Source: Pseudomonas asgharzadehiana (GTDB taxonomy: Bacteria > Pseudomonadota > Gammaproteobacteria > Pseudomonadales > Pseudomonadaceae). Taken from it: a stretch of DNA of 64,000 nt. The notes beneath the pieces were generated by a model. The model did not search any database, had not been told where the DNA came from, and saw only the letters and a program-made list of their open reading frames with translations. The stretch covers positions 3,038,001 to 3,102,000 of the forward strand of contig NZ_CP077079.1 of NCBI RefSeq assembly GCF_019139815.1, given 5' to 3'. A program made the position numbers and the translations under genes. Below, in pieces: positions 1 through 14,685 of the stretch. Within the stretch, counting starts at the first letter, position 1. Each line of letters begins with the position of its first letter.

Positions 1-605
1 TTGATCAGCTCAAGCAACAGGCCGATCCGCGCCAGCGCGGCGAACTGATCGCTGATATGTATGCCGACCTGGGTGAGCTGGAAGAAATGGTCTCCGAGCT
101 GCTCACTTACGCCAGCCTGGAGCGCGGCGCGACCCAGGTCACTCGCGAACGCATCGAAGCCCATAGCTGGCTCGACAGTGTGATCGGCAGCGTGGCCCTG
201 GAGGCTGAGGCGGCGGGTATTCAGTTGTCGTTGCGCACCTGCGAGGTGGACGTGATCGAGATCGAACCGCGCTTTATGGCGCGGGCGGTGATCAACCTGC
301 TGCGCAATGCCATCCGTTACGCCGAGCGCCGCGTGGAGGTGTCGCTGATCACATTCGGCAGCGGCTATGAAGTGCGGGTGTGCGACGACGGTCCTGGCGT
401 GCCCGAAGAGGGCCGGGCGAAAATCTTCCAGCCCTTTATGCGCCTGGACGCCAGCCGCGACCGCCGTACCGGCGGCTTCGGCCTCGGCCTGGCGCTGGTG
501 CAGCGGGTGTCGCAGTGGCATGGCGGGCAGGTGCATGTGTTGGATTCGGAATGGGGCGGGGCCTCGTTTCGAATGACCTGGGCCTATGCTGAACAACATG
601 TCTAA
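1..605 (+). CDS. Sensor histidine kinase, C-terminal part (5' end outside window)
   Basis: This is the end of a two-component sensor kinase; its frame is open from base 3, so the start lies upstream. The visible part begins at the end of the dimerisation helix (ELLTYASLERG) and holds a complete ATP-binding domain: N box NLLRNAIRYA, G1 box DDGPGVPEEG, F box IFQPFMRLD and G2 box GGFGLGLALV. The phosphoacceptor histidine and the sensor region lie outside the window. The style of the HisKA/HATPase part resembles RstB-type kinases, but without the N-terminus I do not assign a name. A terminator follows about 75 bp after the stop. Confidence 0.85.
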   Translation, partial: DQLKQQADPRQRGELIADMYADLGELEEMVSELLTYASLERGATQVTRERIEAHSWLDSVIGSVALEAEAAGIQLSLRTCEVDVIEIEPRFMARAVINLLRNAIRYAERRVEVSLITFGSGYEVRVCDDGPGVPEEGRAKIFQPFMRLDASRDRRTGGFGLGLALVQRVSQWHGGQVHVLDSEWGGASFRMTWAYAEQHV

Positions 606-679: not shown

Positions 680-712
680 CCGGTCGGCGTCCAGCCGCCC
701 GGTTTTATTTTT
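680..712 (+). terminator. Rho-independent terminator after the histidine kinase
   Basis: The arms CCGGTCGGC and GCCGCCCGG (one T/C mismatch) flank a five-base loop and are followed by TTTTATTTTT. The T-rich tail lies on the + side only, so it serves the kinase transcript. It overlaps the last bases of the convergent serine-hydrolase-like gene. Confidence 0.65.
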
Positions 713-2537
713 GCCGGAAACTCAAGGGTGGGTGCGGGGAGTCGGTACGTTTGAAGGCATAGCCCGAAGCGCTGAGGCCGTTGATCTGGCGGCTGACGGT
801 GTCACCCAGGCCATAACCGCTGCCGGCGAGTACGGCATGGGCGTTGTCCACCGGCAGCAGGATGTAGTCGGTCAGGGGCTCGCTGTGCAGTTGGCCGCGT
901 ATCACCAGGAAGCCGTCTTCCAGGCGCACGCTGATGCCGCTCAACGGCGCGTTGGGTTCGTGGGTATTGAGTACTTGATAGGTGCCGACGGTGTTGGCCC
1001 AGGCCATGGGCAGGGGCGGTGCCTCGATGCGTTCGCCCACGGCAATGCGCTGGCCGTAACTGCGCGCGGTAAGCATCCGTCTGCCCAGCACTGTGACCAC
1101 ATCCAATTGCACGCGGCCCAGTTCGCCGAGGTCTCTGGGCCACCAGCCCAGCAGCTTTTTCTGCGCGCGTAGCCAGCCCTCTTCATCGCGTACCAGTTCG
1201 AAGGTGTCGCCAGCCCATTCAACGGCCAACCGCGTGTTGTCGTCCTTGATGCGCAATACGCCCCAGGCCGTGGCGTAGAAGCCGGCCAGGCGCTTGCGGT
1301 CGGTGGCTGTCGGTACCTGGCGCAGCTTGAGCCCGTGGCTCGGCGGCTGGCAGTCTGCGCTGCACGCGGGTGCGCCGGTGGCGGCCTGGAACATCAGGCG
1401 CAGGGTATCGGTGCTCAGCCGGGCGACCAGGTCTTCGGCGTTGCTGTCGTTGGCCATAATGATCACGGCCAGTTGCTGATCGGGCAGCAGGCTCAATTGC
1501 GCGGCAAACGCATCGCCGCCGCCACTGTGCTGGAAGGTTCGCACGCCAGGGACGATGGGCTCGTCACCGCACGGCGCGAGAAACCAGGCCAGGCCCATCT
1601 GGCAATCGAAGTCCAGGGCATTGCCGGTGTTTTGCTGGCGGAACATCTCATCGATCGATTGGCTGTGCAGCAGCCGCTGCCCCTTGTAGAGCCCGCCGGC
1701 GAAGAGCATTTGCACGTAATGGCTGAGGTCTCTGGGGCTGGCCCACAAGCCCTCGGCGGCGAGGTCGCGCACTTGAGCGTCGGCGCTCGCGACCCCGTCC
1801 TCATACCCCACGGCGCGATAACTCGATTGCGCGGCGGTGCCCACAAAGCTCGCGTGGTTCATCTGCAGAGGGGTGAGCAGGCCCTGTTGCAGTTGCGTTT
1901 CGAAGTCCTTGCCGCTGCTGCGTTCGATGGCCGCTCCGACCAGTGTGTAGCCCAGGTTGGAATAGGCCACCTGGGTGCCGGGCGGCGCGCTCAGCCATAC
2001 ACCCGACACGCGCATCGGCATCTGGCCCATGGCGAAGGCGGTGCGCAGGTCGCGCAGATGTTCGCTGGGCAGGCCGGATTGATGGCTGAGCAGGCGGCGC
2101 AGGGTGATATCGCGGTCAGCGTCGTGCGGGTCCTGGTGGAACCTCGAGCGCACATGGAATTCGCGCAGGGTCTGCTGGATCGGCGCATCCAGCGCCAGGC
2201 GCCGCTGCTCCACCAATTGCAGCGCCGCGCCGGCAGTCAACAGCTTGGAGATTGCGCCCGCCCGGAACGCGGTATTGGGTGTCACCGCAATGCCCATGGC
2301 CGTGTCGGCCATGCCGAAGCCACGGGCCCAGAGCAACTCCTGGCCGTTGACCAGCGCGATGGACAGCCCGGGTATGTGCTCCCGGGCCATGTCCTGCACA
2401 ATGCGGGTTTGCAGGTAGCGAATGATCGCGCTGTAGTCGCCCTTGGGAATCGGCGGCGGGGCAGGCGGCTGGCGATGACAGCCGACACTGCCCAACAGGC
2501 AGCCAAGCAGCGTAATACTGCGCAATGTGCCAAGCAT
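705..2537 (-). CDS. Beta-lactamase/serine-hydrolase-family lipoprotein lacking the nucleophilic serine
   Basis: A 610-residue protein of the class C beta-lactamase/penicillin-binding fold followed by a long C-terminal extension. The N-terminus is a lipoprotein-like signal ending at Cys20 (SVGC). The expected SxxK catalytic motif reads AISK (Ala95-Lys98) in the context FRAGAISKLLTAG, so the nucleophile position is alanine (codon GCA). The other signatures are intact: LLSHQSG, YSN (192-194) and HSG (337-339). From the family, it should bind peptidoglycan- or lactam-like substrates but not acylate through that serine. It may be a binding or regulatory relative, or recently inactivated. The ribosome site lies in a hairpin immediately upstream. 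It is convergent with the kinase gene. Confidence 0.8.
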   Translation of the reverse strand: MLGTLRSITLLGCLLGSVGCHRQPPAPPPIPKGDYSAIIRYLQTRIVQDMAREHIPGLSIALVNGQELLWARGFGMADTAMGIAVTPNTAFRAGAISKLLTAGAALQLVEQRRLALDAPIQQTLREFHVRSRFHQDPHDADRDITLRRLLSHQSGLPSEHLRDLRTAFAMGQMPMRVSGVWLSAPPGTQVAYSNLGYTLVGAAIERSSGKDFETQLQQGLLTPLQMNHASFVGTAAQSSYRAVGYEDGVASADAQVRDLAAEGLWASPRDLSHYVQMLFAGGLYKGQRLLHSQSIDEMFRQQNTGNALDFDCQMGLAWFLAPCGDEPIVPGVRTFQHSGGGDAFAAQLSLLPDQQLAVIIMANDSNAEDLVARLSTDTLRLMFQAATGAPACSADCQPPSHGLKLRQVPTATDRKRLAGFYATAWGVLRIKDDNTRLAVEWAGDTFELVRDEEGWLRAQKKLLGWWPRDLGELGRVQLDVVTVLGRRMLTARSYGQRIAVGERIEAPPLPMAWANTVGTYQVLNTHEPNAPLSGISVRLEDGFLVIRGQLHSEPLTDYILLPVDNAHAVLAGSGYGLGDTVSRQINGLSASGYAFKRTDSPHPPLSFRQK

Positions 2538-2540
2538 GAG

Positions 2541-2568
2541 GAGCCTCCAACAGAGGGTTTGGAGGCTC
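2541..2568 (-). promoter_or_regulatory. Perfect inverted repeat that encloses the Shine-Dalgarno of the lipoprotein gene
   Basis: On the minus strand GAGCCTCCAA and TTGGAGGCTC form perfect 10-bp arms around an 8-base loop, ending three bases before the ATG at 2537. The only good ribosome-binding sequence, GGAGG, lies in the 3' arm, so the folded mRNA would hide it. It could alternatively be a dyad operator. Confidence 0.55.
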
Positions 2569-2778
2569 GAATGCTATTGGTGGGCGGCTTGAAGGTCTTT
2601 GACTGCTTTGTCGAGAAACTGTCAAAGACTGTTAACGGGCCAGGTCGAAGCGCATTCAGTGCTGGCGAATGAATCACCGTGCTATGTGGGTTGATGGCGT
2701 TTTCCACGTCTTGCGTGCCGGTGAAGCGGCCCTCCGTGTATCGGCCTTTTTCCAGGCCGGAGAGGTCCCCGGTGTTTT

Positions 2779-3738
2779 TCATTCGCCATTGAAGCGTACT
2801 GTCTGGTAGCGCGGCGCTACCAGATGCCAGGCGATATTGCCGCGCCATTGATTATGCAGGGCCTGGGCGCAGATTTTCGCTTGTTCCTGGCTGCGCTCGT
2901 CAAACCCCAGGATTGCCAGTTGTGCGGGTAGCACGGCCTGGGCGTGTGCAAAGCGCTCAGCCCACTGCTCAATACGCTGGGAAACGTTCTGGGTTGCTTG
3001 GTGTACGGAATTTCCATGGGCGTGCCTGAGATGAGTCAGCAGGTTGAATACATCCTCGTCGGGGTTTTCCATGATGGGAAACGACAACACATCGTTAACC
3101 GCCTTGAACAAGTTCAGCGCCACGCTGCGCAGTTCCTGCCAGGGAGCACTGTAGTAAAGGTCTGATGACAAGTTGATGTTTTGCGCCAAGTAGGTGAACT
3201 CCAGGCACACCTGGAACCCACCGGCATTTTGCCAAAGGTGTCCATAACCTTCGTTACCCGGCTGGGTGTGGTGCAAGCGATGCATCAGGGCGATGGCGCA
3301 TGGAGCGAGGTAAGTTGCATATTGCTCTGCGACGCGCTGCTTCCAGATAGGTGGCATCAGCCGAGCAGCTCTGCGCATGATATCTGCGAGTGCACAGGCG
3401 AGCGGTTCGCGGCTCACCGTATTTGCGGTGAACGCGTGGGTATATACGCCACGAATCAGGCGTTCGAGGACTTCAGGGTCTCTGCAGTCCTCGTCGGCGA
3501 GGTCATCCTGGCAACTGAACCAACCCACCAGGTCTGACAGAATCATCAGTATGTCCGCAGGCGCATCACTCCACATGTAACCGGCATAAGTGCCCGGTAC
3601 GTAGATATCTAATTGATGGGCCGCATGGGGCGTGGTTCCAAGTCCCATGCGGCTGAGCCACTGACGAGTATGTTGTTGCGCTTCGTCCGTGTAGGGGCTC
3701 AGTGGAAAAGTCGTCCCGGCAGACAGTAACCCGGTCAT
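2779..3738 (-). CDS. Class I terpene synthase (terpene cyclase)
   Basis: A 319-residue protein with the signatures of bacterial class I terpene cyclases, which ionise a linear prenyl diphosphate and cyclise it. The Asp-rich metal motif is D78-D79-L-A-D82-E83 and the C-terminal RY pair is R310-Y311 (NIAWHLVAPRY). The second metal motif is N215-D216-V-L-S219 with glutamate at 224. That is one residue further from the serine than the usual NDxxSxxxE, and the downstream D-V is displaced equally, so one residue seems inserted. About 46 residues before N215, where an arginine normally senses diphosphate, I read LWQNAGG with no arginine. Length is normal. The gene faces a prenyl synthase across 299 bp. 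No methyltransferase or P450 is adjacent. The product cannot be predicted. Confidence 0.85.
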   Translation of the reverse strand: MTGLLSAGTTFPLSPYTDEAQQHTRQWLSRMGLGTTPHAAHQLDIYVPGTYAGYMWSDAPADILMILSDLVGWFSCQDDLADEDCRDPEVLERLIRGVYTHAFTANTVSREPLACALADIMRRAARLMPPIWKQRVAEQYATYLAPCAIALMHRLHHTQPGNEGYGHLWQNAGGFQVCLEFTYLAQNINLSSDLYYSAPWQELRSVALNLFKAVNDVLSFPIMENPDEDVFNLLTHLRHAHGNSVHQATQNVSQRIEQWAERFAHAQAVLPAQLAILGFDERSQEQAKICAQALHNQWRGNIAWHLVAPRYQTVRFNGE

Positions 3739-4037
3739 CTTATGTATCCAGTGGTGTTTGAAAGGAACTTGGTATGTAAGATAGATGAGCCTGGGAACGA
3801 GCGTTAGAGGTTTTGAATGAAGTTAGGATTTGCTGGCGAAGCCAGTTATTTAACTATCAGGGCGGGATAAGCCTCTGCGTTATATGTTGAGTGTTCTTAA
3901 TTGCTAAAAAAAAGCATGTTTGACGTGCACGTCGCTAAGGTTAAGTGCAGGAATCAATATCTGGGTAAAGCGGTGGCCTGGCAGTGTGAGGGTCTTTTAC
4001 TGGCGAGTAAACACATTGCACGAATAAGGCCTGCCCT
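3739..4037. promoter_or_regulatory. AT-rich divergent promoter region of the terpene pair
   Basis: This 299-bp gap holds no convincing gene. It is clearly richer in A and T than neighbouring DNA (for example TTGCTAAAAAAAAGC near 3900). It must carry the promoters of both terpene genes. The + gene has a usable ribosome site (TAAGG, 11-15 bases before the ATG at 4038); the - gene has only a weak one. I could not identify a specific operator. Confidence 0.5.
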
Positions 4038-4985
4038 ATGAACAGCTCTTTCTACGGCTTTGATAACACGGGCTATGCACGCGCTAAGTCTCGGTGGATC
4101 GAGCCGTTCGCCTACCAGTCCCGCTTCCAGGGAAAGTTGATCCGCACTGAGCTTGGCTGGGCGCTTGCCATGCTGTTTGGTGTGCCAGCAGCGCAGGCGC
4201 ATGTGTTGTGTGAGTCGGTTGAACTGATGAACACCGCTTCGTTGATACATGACGATGTGTTCGATGCGGACTGCCTACGTCGGGGGCAACCATCGGTATG
4301 GAAAACCTACGGTGCGACGGTGGCGATTATTTCAGGAATGCACGGGTACCTGGCTGGTCTCCAACGTCTTGCTTCCCTGGGTAACGAGGGCGTCATCACC
4401 ACCGGTCTCGAAAGCCTCGAAGCCCTGCATATTGGGCAGCACCTTGACGTGTGTGCCAGTGAAGGCACGGCATTGCCTTCGCTGGACGACTACAGGTTGA
4501 TCGCTCAGGCCAATACGGGCTGTTTTTTCGTTTTTTTATTGAATGCCTGCCAGTGTTTGAAGCCTGTGGATGAGGACACGTACTTGGCGTTGAAAGCGTT
4601 GCTGTATGACCTGGCCGTCTACTATCGATACGTGAATGATTATTGCGATGTGAATCATATTCCGCATTTTGCGAAGAAAGGCTTCGCGACGGATCTCGAA
4701 GGAGGGCCAAAGTCATTTTTAATGATCCTGGCCGGGCAGCCGTTATCTAAGGAAAAGCGCTCCTTTGACCAAAAGAATGAAATCATCCGAGCATTTGGCG
4801 ACGCGGGTGTGCTCGATCTTGCAATAGTCGTGATGGAAGAAACTTACTGCCGGATCCTCAACGGTCTGGCCGTTATTGGACACTCCTGTACCCAGCGAAA
4901 AAACAAAAGGCTGGAAGCGTTTATTCGTGATATTCACTTCCAACCTGCTGCTGATGATGATTACTACAAGCGCGTGCTCAGGTAG
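4038..4985 (+). CDS. Polyprenyl diphosphate synthase (trans-isoprenyl family)
   Basis: A 315-residue enzyme expected to condense isopentenyl diphosphate with an allylic diphosphate and so supply the neighbouring cyclase. Visible motifs are the first Asp-rich motif D72-D-V-F-D76 followed by the RRG segment, HIGQHLD (132-137), and a second Asp-rich motif N200-D-Y-C-D204 in which the first Asp is Asn. Ordinary bacterial FPP synthases have a longer DDxxxxD first motif. Here it is the short DDxxD with small residues (Ala67, Ser68) just before it, which in the family tends to allow longer chains such as C20. That is only an inference. The housekeeping ispA should be elsewhere. The gene diverges from the cyclase and looks AT-richer than its flanks. 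Confidence 0.85.
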   Translation: MNSSFYGFDNTGYARAKSRWIEPFAYQSRFQGKLIRTELGWALAMLFGVPAAQAHVLCESVELMNTASLIHDDVFDADCLRRGQPSVWKTYGATVAIISGMHGYLAGLQRLASLGNEGVITTGLESLEALHIGQHLDVCASEGTALPSLDDYRLIAQANTGCFFVFLLNACQCLKPVDEDTYLALKALLYDLAVYYRYVNDYCDVNHIPHFAKKGFATDLEGGPKSFLMILAGQPLSKEKRSFDQKNEIIRAFGDAGVLDLAIVVMEETYCRILNGLAVIGHSCTQRKNKRLEAFIRDIHFQPAADDDYYKRVLR

Positions 4986-4990
4986 TGGCG

Positions 4991-6145
4991 TTATTGATCC
5001 ACCGCACTCAGAATTGCATGCGCCACTTTCACCCGCTCGGCATTCGGGTAGTTCTTGTTTGCCAGGATCACCACGCCGATGTCCTTGCTCGGCACATACG
5101 CCACATAGGCACCAAAGCCGCTGGTTGAACCGGTTTTGTTGAACAGGACGTTGGCGGGTTGTACGTGCGGTGTCGCCAGCCAATTGGCCGTGTGCGGCTC
5201 CATTGCCATGGGCGTGGAGTTGCCGTCGATCAAGGCTTGCAGCGTGATCGGGTAGGGGTAGTACTCCCAGCCCAGGGCCTGGGTGGTGCCGTTTACCGTG
5301 TAGTAGCCGGTATGGGTGGTGGCGATGGCTTGTTGCAGGGGTTTTTCCAGGGTGTCGGGGTGCATGTTGACCAGCACGTAGCGCGCCAGGTCGTGGGCGC
5401 TGGTCTTGATGCCGTAGGCTTCGCTGTCCAGTGCGCCGGGGCCGACGCGCACCGGTTTGTGCTGTTTGTCATAACCCTGGGCATACAGCGCGGCCTTGTC
5501 GGCCCGTACGTGGACGTAGGTGTTGTTCAGGCCCAGTTTGGGCAGCAGCGTGTTTTCCATGGCTGTATTGAACGGCTGGCCCAGGCTTTGTGCGGCGAGG
5601 TAGCCGAACAGGCCGATGCTCGGGTTGGAATAAAGGCGTTGGGCGCCGGGGGCGTAAGTCGGTTGCCAGTGTTGGAAGTAGCTGAGCATGGTCTGGGCAC
5701 TGTCGGCCGACGGCGGAAACTGCAGGGTCAAGCCGCCTGGGGTGTAGGTTGCCAGTTGCAGCAGGCTGATGTGGTCGAAGGCGCTGCCCTTGAGGGTCGG
5801 CAGGTGTTGGCTGGCCTTGTCCGCGAGCTTGAGCTTGCCGGTGGCCTGGGCGTAACCGCCGAGGGTGGCGGTGAAGGTTTTGCTCACCGAGCCGATTTCG
5901 AACAGGGTGTCTTGGGTGATGGGTTGCTGTTGTTCTTTGGAGGCGACACCGTAGTTAAAGTATTGCACCTGGCCTCGGCTCACCACGGCCACCGACAGGC
6001 CGGCGATCTGTTCTTGTCGCATCAGTGGTTCGACGTTATCGTCCACGACCTTGCGCAAATCGGGGGCGGCCATGCAAGTGCCGGAACCGAGCAGTAAGGC
6101 GCAAATAAAGATGTTTCGTACGTTGAGATGAGACTTTTCGTGCAT
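4991..6145 (-). CDS. ampC: Class C beta-lactamase AmpC
   Basis: A 384-residue periplasmic beta-lactamase that hydrolyses cephalosporins and penicillins through an acyl-serine intermediate. The N-terminus is a Sec signal ending near CMAAP. All three active-site motifs are intact: SVSK (86-89), YSN (172-174) and KTG (337-339). The ATG at 6145 was chosen because it gives the normal signal peptide and AmpC length and has a GGAAG upstream; a longer open frame adds 43 unlikely residues. It diverges from ampR, the classical arrangement in which AmpR induces ampC in response to cell-wall muropeptides. Confidence 0.95.
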   Translation of the reverse strand: MHEKSHLNVRNIFICALLLGSGTCMAAPDLRKVVDDNVEPLMRQEQIAGLSVAVVSRGQVQYFNYGVASKEQQQPITQDTLFEIGSVSKTFTATLGGYAQATGKLKLADKASQHLPTLKGSAFDHISLLQLATYTPGGLTLQFPPSADSAQTMLSYFQHWQPTYAPGAQRLYSNPSIGLFGYLAAQSLGQPFNTAMENTLLPKLGLNNTYVHVRADKAALYAQGYDKQHKPVRVGPGALDSEAYGIKTSAHDLARYVLVNMHPDTLEKPLQQAIATTHTGYYTVNGTTQALGWEYYPYPITLQALIDGNSTPMAMEPHTANWLATPHVQPANVLFNKTGSTSGFGAYVAYVPSKDIGVVILANKNYPNAERVKVAHAILSAVDQ

Positions 6146-6276
6146 GATGTTTCGCTTCCATGTAGGTGAAGCATTGGCGGTCAAAGCCTGAGCAGGCGCC
6201 GCAAATCTAGGCAGTTTGGCGCCTGGAGGCAACCGATCATATTTCGCACCAGCCATTAGAAAATTTAGGGTCAACC
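6146..6276. promoter_or_regulatory. ampC-ampR intercistronic control region
   Basis: These 131 bp separate the divergent ampC and ampR starts. In other Gram-negative bacteria the equivalent region carries the AmpR operator and overlapping promoters. An AT-rich stretch lies next to ampR (TTAGAAAATTTAGGG, about 6256-6270). I infer its role from position and did not find an unambiguous copy of a known AmpR site. Confidence 0.6.
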
Positions 6277-7152
6277 ATGCTGCGTTCCCACCTGCCCCTC
6301 AACGCACTGCGTGCATTCGAGGCTTCAGCCCGGCACTTGAGCTTTACCCGCGCGGCCATTGAGTTATGCGTGACCCAGGCGGCCGTCAGCCATCAGGTCA
6401 AAAGCCTGGAAGCGCAGTTGAATGTCACCTTGTTCAAGCGGCTGCCGAGGGGGCTCATGCTCACCCGCGAAGGCGAAACGCTGCTGCCGGTGCTGCGCGA
6501 ATCCTTCGACCGCATCGCCACCACCTTGGGCCAGTTCGAAGGCGGCCACTACCGTGAGGTGCTTACGGTCGGCGCGGTCGGTACCTTTGCCGTGGGATGG
6601 CTGCTGCCGCGTCTGCCGGACTTTCACGCACGCTACCCGTTTATTGACTTGCGCCTGTCCACCCATAACAACCGCGTCGATGTTGCCGCCGAAGGCCTGG
6701 ATTACGCGATTCGCTTCGGTGCCGGCGCCTGGCACGGCACGTACGCCTGCCCATTGCTGGAAGCGCCGCTGACCGTGTTGTGCGTGCCGCAGCTTGCCGA
6801 GCAATTGCACGCCCCGCGTGACCTGTTGAAACACACCTTGCTGCGTTCCTACCGCGCCGATGAATGGAGCCTGTGGTTCCACGCCGCCGGCTTGCCGGCC
6901 GACACCCTGGTGCCGCGCAGCATCATGTTTGACTCGTCGCTGGCGATGATGGAAGCGGCCCTGCAAGGTACCGGCGTGGCGTTGGCGCCAGCGATGATGT
7001 TTGCGCGACAGCTGGAGGGGGGTGTGATCCGCCAGCCGTTCGACGTGGGCATCACCACCGGCAGCTATTGGCTGACGCGCTTGCAGTCGCGCAGCGAGAC
7101 CTCGGCGATGGCGGCGTTCAAGGGCTGGCTGTTGCAGGCTGCCGCGGGTTAA
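6277..7152 (+). CDS. ampR: LysR-type regulator AmpR
   Basis: A 291-residue LysR-family regulator. The N-terminal helix-turn-helix (LNALRAFEASARHLSFTRAA, then VTQAAVSHQVKSLE) is characteristic of the AmpR/GcvA branch and is followed by a substrate-binding-like effector domain. Divergence from ampC and the match to the AmpR pattern make the assignment strong. AmpR represses or activates ampC depending on bound peptidoglycan precursors or anhydro-muropeptides. Its stop overlaps the stop of the convergent dienelactone hydrolase gene by a few bases. Confidence 0.9.
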   Translation: MLRSHLPLNALRAFEASARHLSFTRAAIELCVTQAAVSHQVKSLEAQLNVTLFKRLPRGLMLTREGETLLPVLRESFDRIATTLGQFEGGHYREVLTVGAVGTFAVGWLLPRLPDFHARYPFIDLRLSTHNNRVDVAAEGLDYAIRFGAGAWHGTYACPLLEAPLTVLCVPQLAEQLHAPRDLLKHTLLRSYRADEWSLWFHAAGLPADTLVPRSIMFDSSLAMMEAALQGTGVALAPAMMFARQLEGGVIRQPFDVGITTGSYWLTRLQSRSETSAMAAFKGWLLQAAAG

Positions 7153-8036
7153 ACCAGGTATTTGCGAAACCATCCCAGGGTGCGTTCCCACGCCAGATTC
7201 GCCGCGGCCTCGTCATAGCGTGGCGTCGAATCATTGTGAAAACCGTGATTGGCGCCCTTGTAGATAAATGCCTCGTAGGTCGTGCCCGCCGCCTTCAACG
7301 CCTGCTCATACGCCGGCCAGCCTTCGTTGATCCGCGTGTCCAACTCACCGAAATGCAACATGATCGGCGCCTTGATGCGCGGCACGTCCTGGGCTTGCGG
7401 CTGACGCCCGTAGAACGATACCGCCGCGCCCAGTTCAGGGTAGGCCACCGCCGCTGCGTTGGTCACGCCGCCGCCGTAGCAGAAGCCGGTGATGCCGACC
7501 TTGCCGGTGCTGTCGTCGTGGTGCATCAGCCATTCGATGGCCGCGAAAAAGTCGTTCATCAGTTTGGTAGGGTCGACGGTCTGTTGCAGCGCCACGCCTT
7601 TTTCGTCATTGCCGGGGTAGCCGCCGACGGAGCTCAGGCCGTCCGGCGCCAGTGCGATAAACCCGGCTTTGGCCAGGCGTCGGGCGACGTCTTCGATATA
7701 AGGGTTCAGGCCACGGTTTTCGTGAACCACCACCACGGCGGGCAACTTGCCTGCCGCCTTGGCCGGGCGCACCCGGTAGCCGCGCACCGTGCCGTTGCCC
7801 TTGGGCGAGGGGTAGGTGACGTAGTCGGCGACGATGTCAGGGTCGGTGAATTTGACTTGTTCGGCCAGCGCGTAGTTGGGGCTCAGGGCGGCGAGCAGGG
7901 CCGATGCCGTGAGGCCGCCGAAGGTGAACAGCGCGGCGCGGTCGAGAAACTCGCGGCGGTTGAGCTTGCCATGTGCGTAGCCGTCGTAGAGTTCCAGCAG
8001 TTCGGGGGCAAAGTCCTGCGCGGTGAGACGAGCCAT
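7149..8036 (-). CDS. Dienelactone hydrolase family protein with Tat-like signal
   Basis: A 295-residue alpha/beta hydrolase of the dienelactone hydrolase family. The nucleophile is the Cys in GFCYGGG, the acid the Asp in ELDTRI and the base the His in NHGFH. A twin-arginine stretch (NRREFLDRAALF, near residues 26-37) followed by a hydrophobic run and ALA suggests Tat export, as in YghX-type proteins. The ATG at 8036 was chosen because it has a GAGGA ribosome site and the usual MARLTAQDF beginning. It lies 44 bp downstream of the thioesterase gene on the same strand, so the two may be cotranscribed. The substrate is unknown. Confidence 0.85.
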   Translation of the reverse strand: MARLTAQDFAPELLELYDGYAHGKLNRREFLDRAALFTFGGLTASALLAALSPNYALAEQVKFTDPDIVADYVTYPSPKGNGTVRGYRVRPAKAAGKLPAVVVVHENRGLNPYIEDVARRLAKAGFIALAPDGLSSVGGYPGNDEKGVALQQTVDPTKLMNDFFAAIEWLMHHDDSTGKVGITGFCYGGGVTNAAAVAYPELGAAVSFYGRQPQAQDVPRIKAPIMLHFGELDTRINEGWPAYEQALKAAGTTYEAFIYKGANHGFHNDSTPRYDEAAANLAWERTLGWFRKYLV

Positions 8037-8080
8037 CGGTGCAATCCTCGAGGGGTGGTGGCAATCAATGTAGACCAGGT

Positions 8081-8575
8081 TCAACTCTCGCGGCCATGGG
8101 CGGCGGCGGCCAGATGGCCGGTGTCGACACGCACGAACACTGAATCACCGATTGCGGTGAGCACGTCGCCCGCGTATACCTCGCAGACCACGCGGCTTTT
8201 GCGCCCCACGTCGCCTTCGACCCGTGCGCGCAGGGTCAGCGGGACGCCCATGGGGGTGGGCTTGATAAATTTGATGCCCAGGTTGCCGGTGACGCAGTCG
8301 ATGCGCGGCAGGCTGCCGGGTTCGCGGTGTTCGGCCTGGTAGTGGTAGGCCATGGCGGTCCAGTTGGAATGGCAGTCCACCAGCATGGCGATCAGGCCGC
8401 CGTAGACCAGGTCGGGCCAGCCGCTGTATTGAGGCTCGGGTTGGTGCTCGGCGATGACGTGGATGCGGTCCTCGTCCCAGCGGCTCTTGATGTGCAGGCC
8501 GTGGGGGTTGCTGCTGCCGCAACCGTAGCAAATGCCTTCCGGGGCCGTGATGTCTTGCAGAGAAGGGAAGTGCAT
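8081..8575 (-). CDS. PaaI-type hotdog thioesterase
   Basis: A 164-residue single-domain hotdog-fold protein of the PaaI/YbgC type, which usually cleaves acyl-CoA thioesters. The segment GGLIAMLVDCHSNWTA matches the family active-site helix (the HGG...D region is YGG...D here). An N-terminal CYGCG pair of cysteines is common in this subgroup. The start at 8575 has a textbook AAGGAG seven bases upstream, much better than the longer frame. The following gene is the dienelactone hydrolase. Confidence 0.8.
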   Translation of the reverse strand: MHFPSLQDITAPEGICYGCGSSNPHGLHIKSRWDEDRIHVIAEHQPEPQYSGWPDLVYGGLIAMLVDCHSNWTAMAYHYQAEHREPGSLPRIDCVTGNLGIKFIKPTPMGVPLTLRARVEGDVGRKSRVVCEVYAGDVLTAIGDSVFVRVDTGHLAAAAHGRES

Positions 8576-8662
8576 GCAAACTCCTTGTTGTAATGGGCGG
8601 TTACTCTGTTTAGCAGGACCCGCGCCTGATGGGAATACAGCCATTTTTTTGCGGAGCGGTGC

Positions 8663-9220
8663 ATGAAACGTCGACTGTTGGGGCTTACCCTTGTGCTGGG
8701 CTGCATCGCCAGCGCCCAGGCCGTGGAGTACAAGGACGTCAACCCCACCGCCAGCCAGATCACCTTTACCTACAAACAGTTGGGGCAGCAGGTCTACGGC
8801 ACCTTCGGCCAGTTCGAGGGTACGTTGACCTTCGATACCCGCAAACCTGAGGCGGGGCACGCGTTGCTGAAGATTCAGCTCGCCAGCATCAACGCCGGGA
8901 GCGACGATGCCAATGACACCCTGCAACGCGCGTCCTGGTTTGATACCGCCACCTATCCGGTGGGCGTGTATGAGTCCACGGCGGTCAAGGCCCTGGGCGA
9001 CAACCGCTTCAAGATCAGCGGCAACCTGACCATCAAGGGCACCACCCGCCCGGTTGACGTGCAGGTGCTGCTCAAGGAGCTGGATGGCATTGGCATATTC
9101 GACGGCGAATTCACCCTCAAGCGAGGTGACTTCAAGATCGGCGAGGGGGAGTGGGCCGGCAACAGCGTGGTGTCCAACGACATCCGTATCAAGTTCAAGA
9201 TGGTCGCGCCGCAGCGCTAG
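8663..9220 (+). CDS. YceI-family periplasmic protein
   Basis: A 185-residue protein with a Sec signal (cleavage after SAQA) and a single YceI lipocalin-like beta-barrel domain, recognisable from FDTRKPEAGHALLKIQLAS and ISGNLTIKGTTRPVD. Family members bind long isoprenoid or amide lipids in the periplasm. Family knowledge, not the sequence alone, suggests lipid binding. It ends tail-to-tail with the EamA transporter gene, overlapping by four bases. Confidence 0.85.
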   Translation: MKRRLLGLTLVLGCIASAQAVEYKDVNPTASQITFTYKQLGQQVYGTFGQFEGTLTFDTRKPEAGHALLKIQLASINAGSDDANDTLQRASWFDTATYPVGVYESTAVKALGDNRFKISGNLTIKGTTRPVDVQVLLKELDGIGIFDGEFTLKRGDFKIGEGEWAGNSVVSNDIRIKFKMVAPQR

Positions 9221-10107
9221 CGGGCGAACTCCTTGGCGCCGGCCACGCAGCCGATCACGGCAACCGTCACCAGTACCATGCCCAGGCTTACCTGTTCATG
9301 CAGCAGGCCCGCCGCCAGTGCCAGGCCGAAGAACGGCTGCAGCAACTGCAACTGGCCGACGGCGGCGATGCCACCCTGGGCCAGCCCGCGGTACCAGAAC
9401 ACAAAGCCGATCAACATGCTGAACAACGACACATACGCCAGGCTCAGCCACGCTGGCAAGCTGATGCCGGTGAAGCTGGATGGCGCCAGGGCCAGGCTCA
9501 ACGGCAGCACCACCGGCAGCGACACGACCAGCGCCCAGCAGATCACCTGCCAGCCGCCCAGGCTGCGCGACAGCTTGGCGCCTTCGGCGTATCCCAGGCC
9601 GCACACCAGCACCGCCAATAGCATCAACACGTCACCGGCAGGCGCGGCACTCAAGCCTTGGGCCAAGGCGTAACCCATCACCAGGGCGCTGCCCAGCACC
9701 GAAAACAGCCAGAACGCCGGGCGCGGTCGCTCGCCGCCGCGCAGCACACCGAAGATCGCGGTGGCCAGGGGGAGCAGGCCGATGAATACGATGGAGTGCG
9801 CGGAGGTCACGTATTGCAGCGCCAGGGCGGTGAGCAAAGGAAAGCCGATCACCACGCCCAGCGCCACGATGACCAGCGGTACCCATTGGCTGCGCATGGG
9901 GCGTTTTTCCTTGAACAGCCACAGCAAAAGCAGCCCCAGCAGCGCCGCAATGGTGGCGCGGATCAGGGTGAGGAACACCGGGTCGAACTCCAGCACGGCC
10001 AGGCGCGTGGCGGGCAACGAGCCGCTGAAAATCAGCACGCCGATAAAGCCGTTGATCCAGCCCTGGGTATTGCTGTCCGGGGTGTCGAGCGGGGAGGTGC
10101 GTTCCAT
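9217..10107 (-). CDS. EamA/DMT-family transporter
   Basis: A roughly 296-residue inner-membrane protein with about ten hydrophobic segments in two EamA repeats, typical of drug/metabolite exporters. The ATG at 10107 was preferred over a TTG 18 bases upstream; neither has a strong ribosome site. It diverges from a MocR regulator, an arrangement in which the PLP-binding regulator commonly controls the exporter. The substrate is unknown. Confidence 0.8.
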   Translation of the reverse strand: MERTSPLDTPDSNTQGWINGFIGVLIFSGSLPATRLAVLEFDPVFLTLIRATIAALLGLLLLWLFKEKRPMRSQWVPLVIVALGVVIGFPLLTALALQYVTSAHSIVFIGLLPLATAIFGVLRGGERPRPAFWLFSVLGSALVMGYALAQGLSAAPAGDVLMLLAVLVCGLGYAEGAKLSRSLGGWQVICWALVVSLPVVLPLSLALAPSSFTGISLPAWLSLAYVSLFSMLIGFVFWYRGLAQGGIAAVGQLQLLQPFFGLALAAGLLHEQVSLGMVLVTVAVIGCVAGAKEFAR

Positions 10108-10183
10108 GGGCGGCGTCCGAAACAAAGAAAGGTTGCGTGAGAGCCATCCTAGGATCGAAGATCAAGACAATCAAAAAATTGTC

Positions 10184-11524
10184 ATGGATACATCGCCAAT
10201 GCCCCGTGCCCGCTACAAGCTGCTGGTCGACTCCTTCGCCGAAGCCATTCGCTCGGGGCACATGCTCCCCGGCACGCGCCTGCCCACCCATCGCCAACTG
10301 GCGGCCGAGCATGGCCTTGCCCTGGTCACCGCCAGCCGTGTGTACTCGGAGCTTGCGGCCATGGGCCTGGTCAGCGGCGAAACCGGGCGCGGCACCTTCG
10401 TGCGCGAGATTTCGTTGCCGCCGGGGCAGGGCAGTGGGCAAATGACGGTAGCGACCGGCCTGCTCGACCTCAACTTCAACTACCCGTCGTTGCCGGGCCA
10501 GGCCGAACTGCTGCGCACCGCGTTGCGCCAATTGGCGTTGTCCGGCGACCTGGAGGCGCTGCTGCGTTACCAACCCCATGCCGGACGTCTGCATGAGCGT
10601 GCAGCGATGGCGCGGCACTTGCTGCGCCGGGGCCTGACGGTGGAAGCCGAGCAGGTGCTGATGGTCAGCGGTGCGCAGCATGGTCTGGCGGTAACGATGA
10701 TGGCGCTGCTCAAGCCTGGGGATGTGATCGCCGTGGACGCGTTGACCTATTCGGGGTTCAAGGTGTTGGCCGAAACCCTGCACCTGGAAATCGTCGCCAT
10801 CCCGGTGACCCCCCGTGGCCCGGACCTGGATTACCTCCACGCCCTGTGTCGCAAGCGCCCGGTCCGCGCGGTGTACAGCATGCCGACCTTGCACAATCCA
10901 CTGGGCTGGGTGATGGACCTGCCGCAACGCGAACGGCTGGTTGCTGTCGCCCGTCAGCACAACCTGATGATCATTGAGGACGCGGCCTACGCATTTCTGG
11001 CCGAACACGCACCACCCCCGCTGGCGAGCCTGGCGCCGGAGCGCACGGTGTACGTGGGTGGGTTGTCGAAGAGTGTCGCCACCGGGCTGCGCGTGGGGTT
11101 TGTCGCCGCACCGCCGGCCTGGGCGAAACAGCTGGAACGCGCCGTCATGGCGACCACCTGGAACGTGCCCGGTGTGATGAGCGCCATTGCCGTGGCCTGG
11201 CTCGAAGATGGCACGGTGGCGCAGTTGGAAACGCAAAAACGCCATGACGCCCAGGCGCGCCAAGCCTTGGCGGCGCACGTGTTGCAGGGGCTGGCGTATA
11301 GCAGTCACCCGTCATCGTACTTTTTGTGGTTGCCATTGGCAGAGGAGGCCCGCGCCGATCAAGTCGCCATGACCCTACTGCGCGAGGGCATCTCGGTGTC
11401 GACCGCCGAGCCATTTGCCGTCTCGGCCCAAGTGCCCCACGCGCTGCGCCTGGCCTTGGGCTCGGTGGATATGCCGGCGCTGCGCGGGGCGTTGCTCAAG
11501 GTGCGCCAGGTGGTGGCGTGGTGA
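10184..11524 (+). CDS. MocR/GntR-type PLP-dependent transcriptional regulator
   Basis: A 446-residue regulator: an N-terminal GntR winged helix (TRLPTHRQLAAEHGLALVTA, VYSELAAMGLV) fused to an aminotransferase-like domain. The latter carries the PLP lysine motif GGLSKSVATGLRVG and the upstream YSMPTLHNPLG substrate loop. Such proteins sense amines or amino acids through PLP. The open frame extends far upstream over the divergent transporter, so I chose the ATG at 10184; 10199 is an alternative. The target is most likely the adjacent EamA gene. Confidence 0.85.
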   Translation: MDTSPMPRARYKLLVDSFAEAIRSGHMLPGTRLPTHRQLAAEHGLALVTASRVYSELAAMGLVSGETGRGTFVREISLPPGQGSGQMTVATGLLDLNFNYPSLPGQAELLRTALRQLALSGDLEALLRYQPHAGRLHERAAMARHLLRRGLTVEAEQVLMVSGAQHGLAVTMMALLKPGDVIAVDALTYSGFKVLAETLHLEIVAIPVTPRGPDLDYLHALCRKRPVRAVYSMPTLHNPLGWVMDLPQRERLVAVARQHNLMIIEDAAYAFLAEHAPPPLASLAPERTVYVGGLSKSVATGLRVGFVAAPPAWAKQLERAVMATTWNVPGVMSAIAVAWLEDGTVAQLETQKRHDAQARQALAAHVLQGLAYSSHPSSYFLWLPLAEEARADQVAMTLLREGISVSTAEPFAVSAQVPHALRLALGSVDMPALRGALLKVRQVVAW

Positions 11525-11536
11525 GCCCGCGGGCGA

Positions 11537-11962
11537 TCAGAATTTGAACGCCTGACGACCGATCAGCAACCAGTGGCCTTTCTGTTTCTGCCACACCTGG
11601 AAGTTCTCGATGTCGGTGGGTACTTCAACGCCGCTGTTCACTGCCTGGGCGTGAAAGTGGTTGCGCACCAGGGCGGTATCGCCTTGCAGGGTGATGGTCT
11701 GCTTCTGCATTTCCAGGGTCTTGAAGCCGCTGCGACCGGTCTCGATATCGGCGATGAACTCCTGTTTGTTCTGGATCTTGCCGCTGGAGTGGCCGTACGT
11801 GAGCTGCTCGGCGGTGAGCGCCTGCAACTGCTTGATGTCTTTGTGCAGCATGGCTTGGGTCAGGTGGTCGACCGCTTGGGCGACATCCTGATCGGCAGGG
11901 GCAGCCGTGACGTAGCCGCTGAACAGGCACAGAAAACCGATCAGCACTTTGATGTTTTGCAT
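11537..11962 (-). CDS. SnoaL/DUF4440-like secreted protein
   Basis: A 141-residue protein with a Sec signal (ending near VTAAP) and one NTF2/SnoaL-like domain, seen in HLTQAMLHKDIKQLQALTAE and VWQKQKGHWLLIGRQAF. The fold is used by small enzymes and binding proteins, so no reaction can be given. The start at 11962 has AAGGAA upstream and gives a clean signal peptide; a longer frame to 12022 adds no hydrophobic leader. It is convergent with the MocR gene. Confidence 0.7.
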   Translation of the reverse strand: MQNIKVLIGFLCLFSGYVTAAPADQDVAQAVDHLTQAMLHKDIKQLQALTAEQLTYGHSSGKIQNKQEFIADIETGRSGFKTLEMQKQTITLQGDTALVRNHFHAQAVNSGVEVPTDIENFQVWQKQKGHWLLIGRQAFKF

Positions 11963-12206
11963 GGGGGGTTCCTTATTGTTGTTGATGTTTACGACAGTTT
12001 GAGTCGTCGTACAACCATGCAATATTTTTTAGGGGGAGGGGAAGTGAAATCTGAAATATTCAGAAAAGATGGGCAGTTGAGCATAGGAAGCCCTTATACG
12101 ACGTCTCAACACATCTACCAGTTTTACTCGGAATACCCGGTTGCTTCCTAGATAGCTGGCAGATAGCTATGCTACTGCGGACATCAAAAACTGCCCGGGA
12201 ACAAAA

Positions 12207-12425
12207 ATGGATTTTGACTGGCACAGCAACCCTCTCACCCGCGCCACGCCGGTGACGCCTGGCTATAAAAACACCCAGAACGTACGCCGCTTCATGCTGT
12301 TGCACTGTGGCCCTGCGTTCAAATTCGACCGCCCGTTCATGGCCTGGATTCGCGACGAAACGCCCAAGACCCTGGGTGACGTGGTGGATGAGTGGTTACG
12401 CCGCAATGCGGGCCCACGGGGGTGA
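12207..12425 (+). CDS. DUF6434-type small protein
   Basis: A 72-residue protein with the pattern of the DUF6434 domain (FDWHSNPLT, VTPGYKNTQNVRRF, MLLHCGPAFKF, FMAWIR). The function is unknown. Its TGA overlaps the ATG of the following CPBP remnant (TGATG), which implies translational coupling of the two. About 180 bp of AT-richer DNA upstream presumably holds its promoter. Confidence 0.7.
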   Translation: MDFDWHSNPLTRATPVTPGYKNTQNVRRFMLLHCGPAFKFDRPFMAWIRDETPKTLGDVVDEWLRRNAGPRG

Positions 12426-12878
12426 TGACGTCCGCCTTCGGCGTGCTGGTCAACTACCTCTTTCATCTGCTGCCTGGCCTGCTGCTATTTGGCGTGTGGT
12501 GGGCGGCTACGCCACGCTCACTGGTGGCGATGCGTATCCTGATCTTGCTGGCGGCGTTTGTGCTGATGCGAGATGCGATGACGCCGTTAGACCTGTGGGC
12601 GGTCGGCAGCGACGTACAGATCGCCTTTTCGGCCAATACACTCGTGTTGGGGGCACTGGGTTGCCTGTCGCTGCTACTGATTATGTTGCTTGCACGGGCG
12701 GCGCCCGAGTTGTGGCGACTGGTTGTGTGGGTCAAAGGCAGTGGCTTGGCCGGTGTTGTTGTTTACCTTGTTGGAAGGCTTGGCCTGCGCCTTGGTGCGT
12801 ATGCGCTACGGCGTGCTGGCGGCGACGCTGACCCACGGCACGGCAATCCTGTTGATTGCCGTGCCCTATACCCGCTGA
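12425..12878 (+). pseudogene. CPBP-type membrane protease remnant with internal deletion and frame change
   Basis: The first part (from ATG 12425) encodes hydrophobic helices beginning MTSAFGVLVNYLFHLLPG and running to LWRLVVWVKGSG near 12741. The same frame then gives an Arg-rich, non-membrane tail. From about 12742 the +1 frame instead reads VAWPVLLFTLLEGLACALVR and ends TLTHGTAILLIAVPYTR, which looks like the last helices of a CPBP protease (the THG histidine). The EExxxR motif and first catalytic His normally found between these parts are absent. The simplest reading is an out-of-frame deletion of the catalytic middle. It may still make a short membrane peptide coupled to DUF6434. Confidence 0.6.
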
Positions 12879-12922
12879 TTTGAACTGCAATCAAACGGGC
12901 TTATCTCGCACCCGGGCCGCGT

Positions 12923-14629
12923 TTACTCAACTGCCAACGGCGGCGTACGCGGCGGTACCAGGCGCTTGCTGCCCGTCGCCTCATACGCCGCCGCGAAACG
13001 CAACAGCGCCGAATCATCATAAGCACGCCCGGCAAACGTCAGCCCCACCGGCATGCCGATATCCGCCATCACGCCCATCGGCACGGTGACGGTGGGTACG
13101 CCCAGGTGGCGGATGGCGAGGTTGCCGTTGGCCACCCAGATACCGTTGCTCCAGGCGATGTCGGCGCTGGCTTCGTTCACGTCGGCGTCGGCCGGGGCCA
13201 CATCGGCCACGGTGGGGAACAGCACCGCATCCAGGCCCAGTGTGTCCATCCAGTCTTCCAGGTCGATGCGCCGGGTTTGCTCCAGGCCGCGCAGGCCGTC
13301 GGGCACGCTGGTGATCTGGTCCCACGGCGTGATACCGCGTTGCGCCATGCGCACGTACTCGTCCATGCCGGCGGCGAGGTCGTCTTCGCGGTTGGGCAGG
13401 GTGCCGGGGTCGTGGGGGAAAATCTGCGGGCCGTCTACCTCCGCCAGGCGGTTGAGCGCTGGGTCGTTGTTGGCGCGCAGGAAATCGTCGAACGCCCAGG
13501 CCGACAGCTCCCATAACTCGTCGTGCAGGAATTCTTTGGAGACCAGCCCGCGGGTAAACACCGTCGGCGCGCCGGGGCGGTCGCCTTCGCAGTTGGAGAC
13601 CAGTGGGAAATCCACTTCGATGACTTCGGCGCCGGCGGCTTCCAGCGCCGCGCGTGCGGCTTTCCATAAGTCGATCACGCTGACACGGGTGTTGATTTTC
13701 TGCCCGGTCGGGCCGCCGATGCCGGGTTTTTCGCTGGTGCCGGCGTCGGGGTCGGCATTGATGTACATGCGCGGCACGCCGAAGCGTTTACCGGCGAGGG
13801 CTTCGGCTGGAGCGGCCAGTTCGGCATAGAAGGCTGGGCGCACCGAGGCGACGCTGGGGATGGGTACCCAGGGTTGCAGGCGCCACAAATCGCCACGGGT
13901 GTCCGGGTCTTCTGCCACCACCACGTCGAGCACTTCGAGCAGGTCGGCCATGGTGCGCGCGAACGGCACCACCACGTCCATGGTCGGGGTCAACGGCCAG
14001 TTGCCGCGCACCGAAATTACGCCGCGCGATGGGGTATAGGCGCACAAGCCGTTGTTGGACGCCGGGCCGCGTCCGCTCGACCAGGTTTCTTCGGCCAGGC
14101 CGAACGCGGCGAAGCTGGCCGCCGTTGCGGTGCCGGCGCCATTGGACGAGCCGGAGGCAAACGGCGCGGTGAGGTAGCCGGCGTTATAGGGGCTTTCTGC
14201 GCGGCCATACACGCCGCGTTGCATGCCGCCATTGGCCATCGGCGGCATATTGGTCTTGCCCAGGCAGATCGCGCCACCGGCGCGCAGGCGTTCGATGGTG
14301 AAGGCGTCGCGATGCGCAACGAGTTTGGCGAACGCCGGGCTGCCGGAGGCCGCGGTCAGGCCTTTTACCAGGTAGCTGTCTTTGGCGGTGTAGGGGATGC
14401 CATCCAATGGCCCCAGGGTTTGGCCCTTGGCGCGGCGCGCATCGGACGCCTCGGCTTCTTCCAGGGCTTGCGGGTTGCGCACCACCACGGCGTTCAACGC
14501 GGTGGCGGTCTGCGGGCCGTCGTAGGCCTCGATCCGGGCCAGGTAAGCCTTGACCAGTTCCACCGCAGTGGTCTGGCCGGATTCAAGCGCAGCGCGCAAT
14601 TGGGCAATGGAGACTTCGGTAACTTGCAT
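12923..14629 (-). CDS. Amidase-signature family hydrolase
   Basis: A 568-residue amidase-signature enzyme. The catalytic lysine is in PYTAKDSYLVKG. The Ser/Gly-rich signature reads ASGSSNGAGTA, and the nucleophilic serine lies in ETWSSGRGPAS, where most relatives have GSDTGGSxRxPA. That spelling is typical of a subgroup of larger bacterial and fungal amidases, so the enzyme is probably active on some amide, but the substrate is unknown. The ATG at 14629 was preferred to a 20-residue-longer frame. The XRE regulator gene ends 56 bp upstream on the same strand, so the pair may be cotranscribed. Confidence 0.85.
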   Translation of the reverse strand: MQVTEVSIAQLRAALESGQTTAVELVKAYLARIEAYDGPQTATALNAVVVRNPQALEEAEASDARRAKGQTLGPLDGIPYTAKDSYLVKGLTAASGSPAFAKLVAHRDAFTIERLRAGGAICLGKTNMPPMANGGMQRGVYGRAESPYNAGYLTAPFASGSSNGAGTATAASFAAFGLAEETWSSGRGPASNNGLCAYTPSRGVISVRGNWPLTPTMDVVVPFARTMADLLEVLDVVVAEDPDTRGDLWRLQPWVPIPSVASVRPAFYAELAAPAEALAGKRFGVPRMYINADPDAGTSEKPGIGGPTGQKINTRVSVIDLWKAARAALEAAGAEVIEVDFPLVSNCEGDRPGAPTVFTRGLVSKEFLHDELWELSAWAFDDFLRANNDPALNRLAEVDGPQIFPHDPGTLPNREDDLAAGMDEYVRMAQRGITPWDQITSVPDGLRGLEQTRRIDLEDWMDTLGLDAVLFPTVADVAPADADVNEASADIAWSNGIWVANGNLAIRHLGVPTVTVPMGVMADIGMPVGLTFAGRAYDDSALLRFAAAYEATGSKRLVPPRTPPLAVE

Positions 14630-14685
14630 GACGTTTTCTTCGCCGCCTTCAGTTGTGGTATCGCCGCAGTCTACGTACAGATATT

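Follow-up and report, generated by a model that had tools for sequence, protein, structure and literature searches.

A class I terpene cyclase (TC) and a trans-prenyl diphosphate synthase-like protein (IDS) are encoded beside ampC in the window, the whole 64,000-nucleotide stretch of Pseudomonas asgharzadehiana DNA that was analysed (Table 1). In the ORF list of the window, the two genes are divergently transcribed and separated by 299 bp (3739–4037). The original prediction of a class I terpene cyclase paired with a prenyl synthase agrees with the ORFs, the Pfam matches and the folds; its description of the genes as facing each other was mistaken, as transcription of the two runs outwards from the intergenic region. 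The base composition that it reported is borne out, with a GC content of 44.5% for the intergenic region and 53.1% for the pair against 62.3% for the window, and among 618 sliding windows of 2.2 kb only 2 have a GC content as low as that of the pair. A scan of positions 2500–5200 for sigma-70-type promoters returned 0, compared with 1.9 expected by chance.

The listed ampC ORF (4991–6274) starts at 6274, upstream of the ATG of the gene at 6145. The LysR-type gene divergent from ampC is, going by its position, presumably AmpR-like. Reading of the ORF lists revealed no recognisable mobile-element gene among the ORFs listed near the pair, and no att-like site was seen by eye at the ampC junction. 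The pair had been described as lying between two serine-hydrolase genes. Both neighbours are confirmed, as a class C beta-lactamase and a PF00144 hydrolase, but the position between them appears incidental because, among the ampC-site loci compared (several of which end early), the AmpH-like gene stands beside the pair only in the window.

Table 1. Features of the terpene cyclase/prenyl synthase locus, in window coordinates
Feature	Position	Strand	Basis or remark
Sensor kinase, C-terminal part	57..605	+	Named from its own sequence
AmpH-like PF00144 serine hydrolase, variable left neighbour	705..2537	-	Nearest AmpH, 112 against a cut-off of 266 (below)
Class I terpene cyclase (TC), 319 aa	2779..3738	-	PF19086 Terpene_syn_C_2, AlphaFold model, fold match
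TC C-terminal RY pair (R310 Y311)	2806..2811	-	37/37 rows
TC NSE-like motif NDVLSFPIME	3067..3096	-	Exceeds NDxxSxx(K/R)E by one residue
TC W169, where the pyrophosphate-sensor Arg is expected (46 residues ahead of the NSE Asn)	3232..3234	-	W in 37/37
TC aspartate-rich motif DDxxD (D78 D79 x x D82)	3493..3507	-	D78 35/37, D79 34/37, D82 37/37
AT-rich divergent intergenic region	3739..4037		44.5% GC
Trans-prenyl diphosphate synthase-like protein (IDS), 315 aa	4038..4985	+	PF00348, AlphaFold model, fold match
IDS first Asp-rich motif DDVFD (D72 D73 D76), canonical	4251..4265	+	53/53 rows
IDS N159, in place of the canonical K-T motif Lys	4512..4514	+	N 49/49 family, K 4/4 outgroup; K151 in human GGPPS by alignment
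IDS second Asp-rich region, altered to YRYVNDYCD	4623..4649	+	Y196, R197 and N200 in place of F, Q and D
ampC, class C beta-lactamase	4991..6145	-	NF033085, 545 bits against a cut-off of 415; 384 aa from ATG at 6145
LysR-type regulator, divergent from ampC	6277..7152	+	ORF list, loci of relatives

Diphosphate-handling residues of the two proteins

TC matches PF19086 (Terpene_syn_C_2) with E = 4e-20 and 72.9 bits, the cut-off being 23.7. Its AlphaFold model is confident (mean pLDDT 90.8) and, by structure comparison, resembles solved class I terpene synthases across nearly its whole length, with the alpha terpenoid fold. In line with the original prediction, in which the pair was not recognised as a described Pseudomonas terpenoid locus, the libraries searched contain no close characterised cyclase. 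None of the NCBIfam models of characterised cyclases is matched at its cut-off, the best being isoafricanol synthase (NF041624; 126 bits against 500), and the best match by sequence to a solved structure, 1,8-cineole synthase (5nx6), reaches 74 bits. TC stands apart from these two enzymes and from T-muurolol synthase (9hqd), identity being at most 24% in the structural alignments with the 50 solved structures listed.

Conservation in TC was read from an alignment of 37 rows, comprising the window protein and 36 of the 47 matches of a protein search. A Trp six residues before the RY pair (W304) is as constant as the pair itself (37/37). In contrast to bacterial class I terpene cyclases, TC has Trp at the place of the pyrophosphate-sensor Arg, an NSE motif that is longer by one residue and no Lys or Arg before the NSE Glu. 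The place of the sensor Arg, 46 residues before the NSE Asn, follows a position rule given in the cited parts of PMC8450962 and PMC5082573. Within the NSE-like motif, N215, D216 and S219 are present in all 37 rows. The Glu is found at +9 instead of +8 (Glu in 33 of 37 rows; Lys, Gln or Ala in 4), and the preceding residue, expected to be Lys or Arg, is Met or Leu in every row (37/37); the canonical triad ND(L,I,V)XSXX(K,R)E is absent from TC. In the AlphaFold model, the NSE helix stops at residue 222, before the Glu, and a further helix, by its place helix G, is broken at 172–174. Fourteen residues after the sensor place, where Glu or Asp is expected, TC has Y183, and a Glu sits at 180.

Deviating NSE motifs are also found in working terpene synthases, among those described in the cited parts of PMC8450962 and PMC5082573, and the deviation in TC therefore does not exclude function. 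Similarly, the sestermobaraene synthase SmTS1 is a working bacterial enzyme that naturally lacks the sensor Arg (cited part of PMC8450962); because it has Gly at that place, the Arg is not essential in every terpene synthase. TC differs from SmTS1 in having Trp rather than Gly there, and the NSE stretch of SmTS1, NQRYSYFKE, is of normal length in the same part of that source. TC would be expected to cyclise a prenyl diphosphate.

IDS matches PF00348 (polyprenyl_synt; E = 2.4e-36, 125.7 bits, cut-off 27). Its AlphaFold model (mean pLDDT 93.3, confident) resembles solved GGPP synthases over almost the full length, and the nearest solved structures, by both sequence and fold, are animal- and fungal-type GGPP synthases. 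In the top rows of these comparisons, identity to human GGPPS (6r4v) and to the prenyltransferase domains of fungal bifunctional terpene synthases (7s0l, 5ero) is 19–26%. These best matches suggest that IDS may have a eukaryotic origin.

The IDS alignment comprises 53 rows (the window protein, 48 of 60 close matches and 4 of 54 far matches), and residues were counted in 49 family rows against 4 outgroup rows. The first Asp-rich motif, DDxxD, is followed by RRG in 53/53 rows. The G-K-x-x-R and RR motifs of prenyl synthases form the IPP site, and the window protein has both (G32 K33 R36 R81 R82); G32, R36, R81 and R82 are invariant across the alignment, and K33, present in 38 of 49 family rows, is Met in the other 11. 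The Lys of the K-T motif has a role with the allylic diphosphate; in the family it is replaced by Asn (N159), and the Thr of that motif, T160, is retained (53/53). The second Asp-rich motif is NDYCD, not the canonical DDxxD, with its first Asp replaced by Asn in all 49 family rows. Y196, R197 and N200 each occur in 49/49 family rows, against Phe, Gln and Asp in 4/4 outgroup rows; N65 and Y195 are likewise fixed (49/49), the outgroup having His or Gln and Ala, respectively. Counted on a sequence alignment with human GGPPS, the family thus has Asn, Asn, Tyr, Arg and Asn (N65, N159, Y196, R197 and N200) at H57, K151, F184, Q185 and D188.

The interpretation that we favour, with a probability of roughly 0.6, is that IDS and TC form a dedicated two-enzyme terpene pathway, in which ordinary chain elongation would be followed by cyclisation. 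The elongation step is uncertain because TC and IDS both lack residues considered important for diphosphate handling and because the D188Y variant of human GGPPS has its activity cut fourfold, as stated in the cited part of PMC8016774. A rather unlikely alternative is that IDS performs a non-standard coupling and that the IPP isomerase (IDI) found in relatives is there to make DMAPP. According to the cited part of PMC3518182, chrysanthemyl diphosphate synthase differs from farnesyl diphosphate synthase by four changes: Phe to Tyr, Asp to Asn, Thr to Gly or Ser in the K-T motif, and a C-terminal Arg to Gly. Two of the four, the Phe-to-Tyr and Asp-to-Asn changes in the second Asp-rich region, are shared by IDS and fixed in the family (49/49). 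Moreover, Asn occupies the human H57 position in every family row, K33 is Met in some (11/49), and the diphosphate-binding residues of TC are altered as well. However, the chrysanthemyl enzyme is from plants and arose from an FPP synthase, its Thr-to-Gly/Ser change is not found in IDS, and R36, R81 and R82 are invariant. In addition, the cited part of PMC10960109 describes a mealybug FPPS in which Asp to Asn abolished irregular activity; there, a mealybug protein with NDYCD was inactive both ways, and the activity of another, with NDYYD, was confined to the regular kind.

It is very unlikely that the IDS-like protein is instead an IDS-type terpene synthase, with the region of N200-D201 serving as an NSE-like motif and two terpene synthases acting on host FPP. 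Its second Asp-rich motif does begin with Asn, and terpene synthases of this type in termites derive from GGPP synthases (cited part of PMC13143122). The termite GGPPS-like proteins in that part of the source, however, conserve only FARM and one other motif, whereas the IDS family keeps G32, R36, R81, R82 and the K-T Thr invariant and K33 in 38 of 49 rows; such a function would also leave TC without a dedicated substrate.

Distribution and chromosomal homes of the pair

Of 398 Pseudomonas genomes in an even draw, 13 carry a TC-family protein (E < 1e-90) and 14 an IDS-family protein (E ≤ 1e-30). Unlike cyclases, with 21–27% identity, are the sole kind in 6 further genomes of the 398 and were set aside as other families. 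The only genome with IDS and without the family TC is G140, in which IDS (45% identity) has an IspG, a DXS and a terpene synthase of another kind in its vicinity and shares the changed diphosphate-handling residues of the family. A second DXS is present on another contig of G140. Apart from this genome, IDS is paired with TC at every family locus read, which also fits the reading of IDS as a terpene synthase in its own right, the partner in G140 being a different terpene synthase nearby.

Within the class, 369 genomes were searched and the sole match to IDS at E ≤ 1e-20 came from the source genome itself. A profile search limited to scoring the 8000 candidates with the most words in common gave a single protein (P0165) from beyond the family at E ≤ 1e-20. 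In named genomes the IDS profile located 18 loci, 17 of them in Pseudomonas, and at all 17 a divergent TC lies beside IDS, in agreement with the claim that the two enzymes are dedicated to each other. The eighteenth, from Zymomonas (L022, 29%), encodes an ordinary prenyl synthase with DDxxD-type motifs and was excluded. A large protein search gave 47 matches to TC, including that of the window and one fragment that is mostly IDI, and 60 close matches to IDS (E < 1e-60, own included). A minority of these matches carry an organism name; those named are all Pseudomonas for TC and, except for Dyella humi (P0078), Pseudomonas for IDS. The pair is a patchy, nearly Pseudomonas-only family.

The family occupies two chromosomal homes. 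At all 11 loci that the tree set contains from the subclade of the window (63–84% TC identity to the window), the pair lies at the 3′ end of ampC. The other subclade (13 loci, 48–56%) has a second home: at 11 of the 13, the pair is flanked within a few genes by a nucleotide nucleosidase gene and, opposite to it, by a gene for an FAD/NAD-binding protein, types that were named from one locus. Of the two exceptions, L009 ends before the left side, and at L016 no FAD gene was seen in the expected place. Trees were built from 24 loci, taking the longest piece of broken genes and omitting L069, L075, L077, L079, L080 and L081, which look like the same records. The home switches once on each of the TC and IDS trees, and the closest kin of the window pair, in P. 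lactucae (L005 and L071), are at the same site. The proposed gain by transfer is likely but, going by these two observations, would be old.

Sites at ampC without the pair, which the original prediction had named as support for insertion, exist in relatives. In G004, which lacks the AmpH-like gene, TC and IDS, the sensor kinase gene ends directly beside ampC. In G017 and G030, the gene that ends beside ampC is for a TRAP-type transporter (named from sequence), and at L007, L072 and L073 the pair lies between the TRAP-type transporter gene and ampC. The left neighbour of the pair thus varies among relatives, and the ampC 3′ end is constant in the subclade. These sites may reflect either gain or loss, and the transfer claim is qualified to that extent.

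Synonymous divergence (pS) may point to exchange. For the more distant ampC-site relatives (L007, L008, L020 and L073), pS of the pair is 0.62–0.83, compared with 0.46–0.51 for LysR, 0.35–0.37 for DLH (which L073 lacks) and 0.38–0.54 for ampC. For P. lactucae L005, the values are 0.49 for TC and 0.61 for IDS, and 0.51, 0.38 and 0.37 for LysR, DLH and ampC, respectively. Because pS of the pair exceeds that of the flanking genes in the distant relatives and is not clearly higher against L005, we read these values as suggesting that the pair was exchanged between species long ago without a change of site and that its recent descent has been vertical. A differing codon bias could be an alternative explanation for the higher pS of the pair.

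Plasmid and phage sources were also considered. TC matches 28 plasmid records, 26 of them from Streptomyces, all at less than 60% identity (24–27% in five listed). The DNA of positions 2500–6300 matches 527 plasmid records, of which the 20 listed cover only positions 2509–3509 of that query, where ampC lies, and carry either a class C beta-lactamase annotation or none. The IDS protein gave no match when searched against phages. From these searches, with TC and the DNA in plasmids and with IDS in phages, a plasmid or phage origin was rejected.

IPP isomerase, co-divergence and selection

A type I IDI is encoded at 12 of the 24 loci, fused to the N terminus of TC in 9 (including L013, in which the frame of the fusion is broken) and separate but adjacent in 3. 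In the one fusion scanned (P0019), the IDI domain passes the curated cut-offs of TIGR02150 (120.3 against 105.8) and NF002995 (158.6 against 127). The IDI coding part in these relatives sits between the TC domain and IDS. Its presence changes five times on each of the two trees and spans both chromosomal homes, and for this reason the simplest history, as far as the unrooted trees of 24 loci go, would be an IDI in the ancestor followed by repeated loss rather than several gains. In both trees, the window groups with L005 and L071, all three lacking IDI (SH-aLRT 96 and 99); the TC tree alone places L008, another IDI-free locus, with them (SH-aLRT 91). The lineage of the window thus appears to have lost IDI. 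No convincing remnant was found in positions 3601–4150 (best E = 0.82), and the only match to a type I IDI elsewhere in the same genome is partial, at 30% identity in a 230-aa frame (E = 4.7e-8). The original prediction had taken the locus for a minimal pathway; the two-gene state holds for the window, but it looks derived because half of the loci carry IDI fused or adjacent to TC.

The fusion of IDI to TC at 9 of 24 loci would fit a non-standard coupling that consumes DMAPP, and the lack of IDI at half of the loci, including the window, argues against it. In its fullest form, and somewhat more doubtful still, the proposal would be that IDS has arrived by convergence at residues of the chrysanthemyl synthase, that its product is an irregular or otherwise non-standard prenyl diphosphate, that DMAPP comes from the cyclase-fused isomerase in many relatives, and that the diphosphate site of TC has been rebuilt for that substrate, creating an isoprenoid line apart from the regular prenyl diphosphates of the host.

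TC and IDS have diverged together. Across 21 loci (L009, L021 and L071 being left out), TC and IDS distances correlate with r = 0.90, and 0 of 2000 permutations are as high; within 10 ampC-site loci, r = 0.525 (P = 0.0025). TC distances do not agree with those of LysR (r = −0.27, 8 loci) or DLH (r = −0.26, 9 loci), a weak control because LysR and DLH do not track each other either (r = −0.17, 7 loci). For TC and ampC, r is 0.32 (P = 0.07). The correlation of 0.90, like the 17 shared loci, upholds the description of the pair as dedicated.

Purifying selection acts on TC, with dN/dS of 0.06–0.15 in the four of five comparisons that were computable, and on IDS in one comparison (0.13), the remaining four being saturated. 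We consider it highly doubtful that the pair is a remnant of a once functional IDI–TC/IDS locus that is now inactive in the species of the window. Such decay would account for the missing IDI, the patchy distribution, the low GC content and the damaged copies among relatives. Both ORFs are intact, however, with the DDxxD motif, the N, S and E of the NSE-like motif, the RY pair and the first Asp-rich motif present, and dN/dS against P. lactucae is 0.11 for TC and 0.13 for IDS. The damaged copies include G304 (L071), in which the IDS match (from residue 51) meets the TC match (from residue 19) with no intergenic region and the TC match consists of two overlapping pieces; TC of L009, IDS of L021 and IDI of L013 are each in two pieces. 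The damage indicates that the locus is dispensable in these four relatives. Because the changes in both partners are family-wide and constant, the first Asp-rich motifs are kept and selection is purifying where computable, the evidence suggests that the active sites are rewired rather than dead.

A proposed pathway and its precedents

In the two-enzyme pathway that we favour, IDS would join IPP to an allylic starter, yielding a linear prenyl diphosphate. This precursor is probably C20, GGPP being the likely product because the nearest folds are GGPP synthases. TC would then ionise the prenyl diphosphate through Mg2+ held by the DDxxD and NSE-like motifs and cyclise the ionised chain to one terpene hydrocarbon or alcohol. 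Both genes are probably expressed from the shared 299-bp region. The lack of a sigma-70-type match in positions 2500–5200 and the damaged copies in relatives count against this pathway. The ancestral locus would have held a type I IPP isomerase, often fused to the N terminus of TC, which would balance IPP and DMAPP; having apparently lost it, the lineage of the window would draw on the IPP and DMAPP supply of the host.

A search of open-licence PMC found no literature on this TC/IDS family or on a fusion of IDI to a terpene cyclase, which may be described elsewhere. The nearest known precedent for the variable presence of idi in a terpene locus of proteobacteria would be the bacterial gibberellin operon. 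By the cited part of PMC7273348, that operon is proteobacterial and plant-associated, has its own prenyl synthase and has lost idi repeatedly; it differs in that idi is a gene at its 3′ end. Its CPS, KS and P450 genes were not recognised at the window locus from the ORF-list names or, for four proteins, from family searches.

The family comprises natural cyclases that are fused to the enzyme making their C5 starter, and both of its partner enzymes are altered at residues that handle diphosphate and are described in the literature as highly conserved. It opens a test of whether these residues are dispensable or are instead marks of a switch to irregular coupling, as in plants.

IDS relatives and other terpene genes

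The only named member of the IDS family (the polyprenyl diphosphate synthase-type protein) found outside Pseudomonas was P0078 from Dyella humi, which shares 54–55% identity and likewise carries the altered family motifs. A more distant member (45% identity) is encoded in Pseudomonas genome G140 and also has the N159, R197 and N200 changes. Its neighbours, in the region of locus L070 at 7885-14842, include an IspG, a DXS paralogue and a small terpene synthase of another type. Together these genes make up a candidate cluster for terpene formation that carries its own MEP-pathway enzymes; a further DXS copy is located elsewhere in the genome. Other, unlike terpene cyclases (21–27% identity) were observed in 6 of 398 Pseudomonas genomes (L035-L040, L042, L043).

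The ampC–kinase region

The region between ampC and the sensor kinase differs among relatives (L066, L068, L072, L073). On gene types assigned by sequence only, TRAP-transporter and acyl-CoA-type genes, the AmpH-like gene and the terpene pair are variably present there.

Split and damaged genes

Genes in two pieces in single relatives
Gene	Locus	Coordinates	Species
IPP isomerase (IDI)	L013	4057-4556	P. kitaguniensis
Terpene cyclase (TC)	L009	613-1541	P. iridis
IDS	L021	8001-8917	P. sputi

In genome G304 the TC–IDS pair is damaged (L071, 8448-9343 and 7659-8453): the two matches abut without an intergenic region, and both lack N-terminal residues. The locus is therefore dispensable in that strain.
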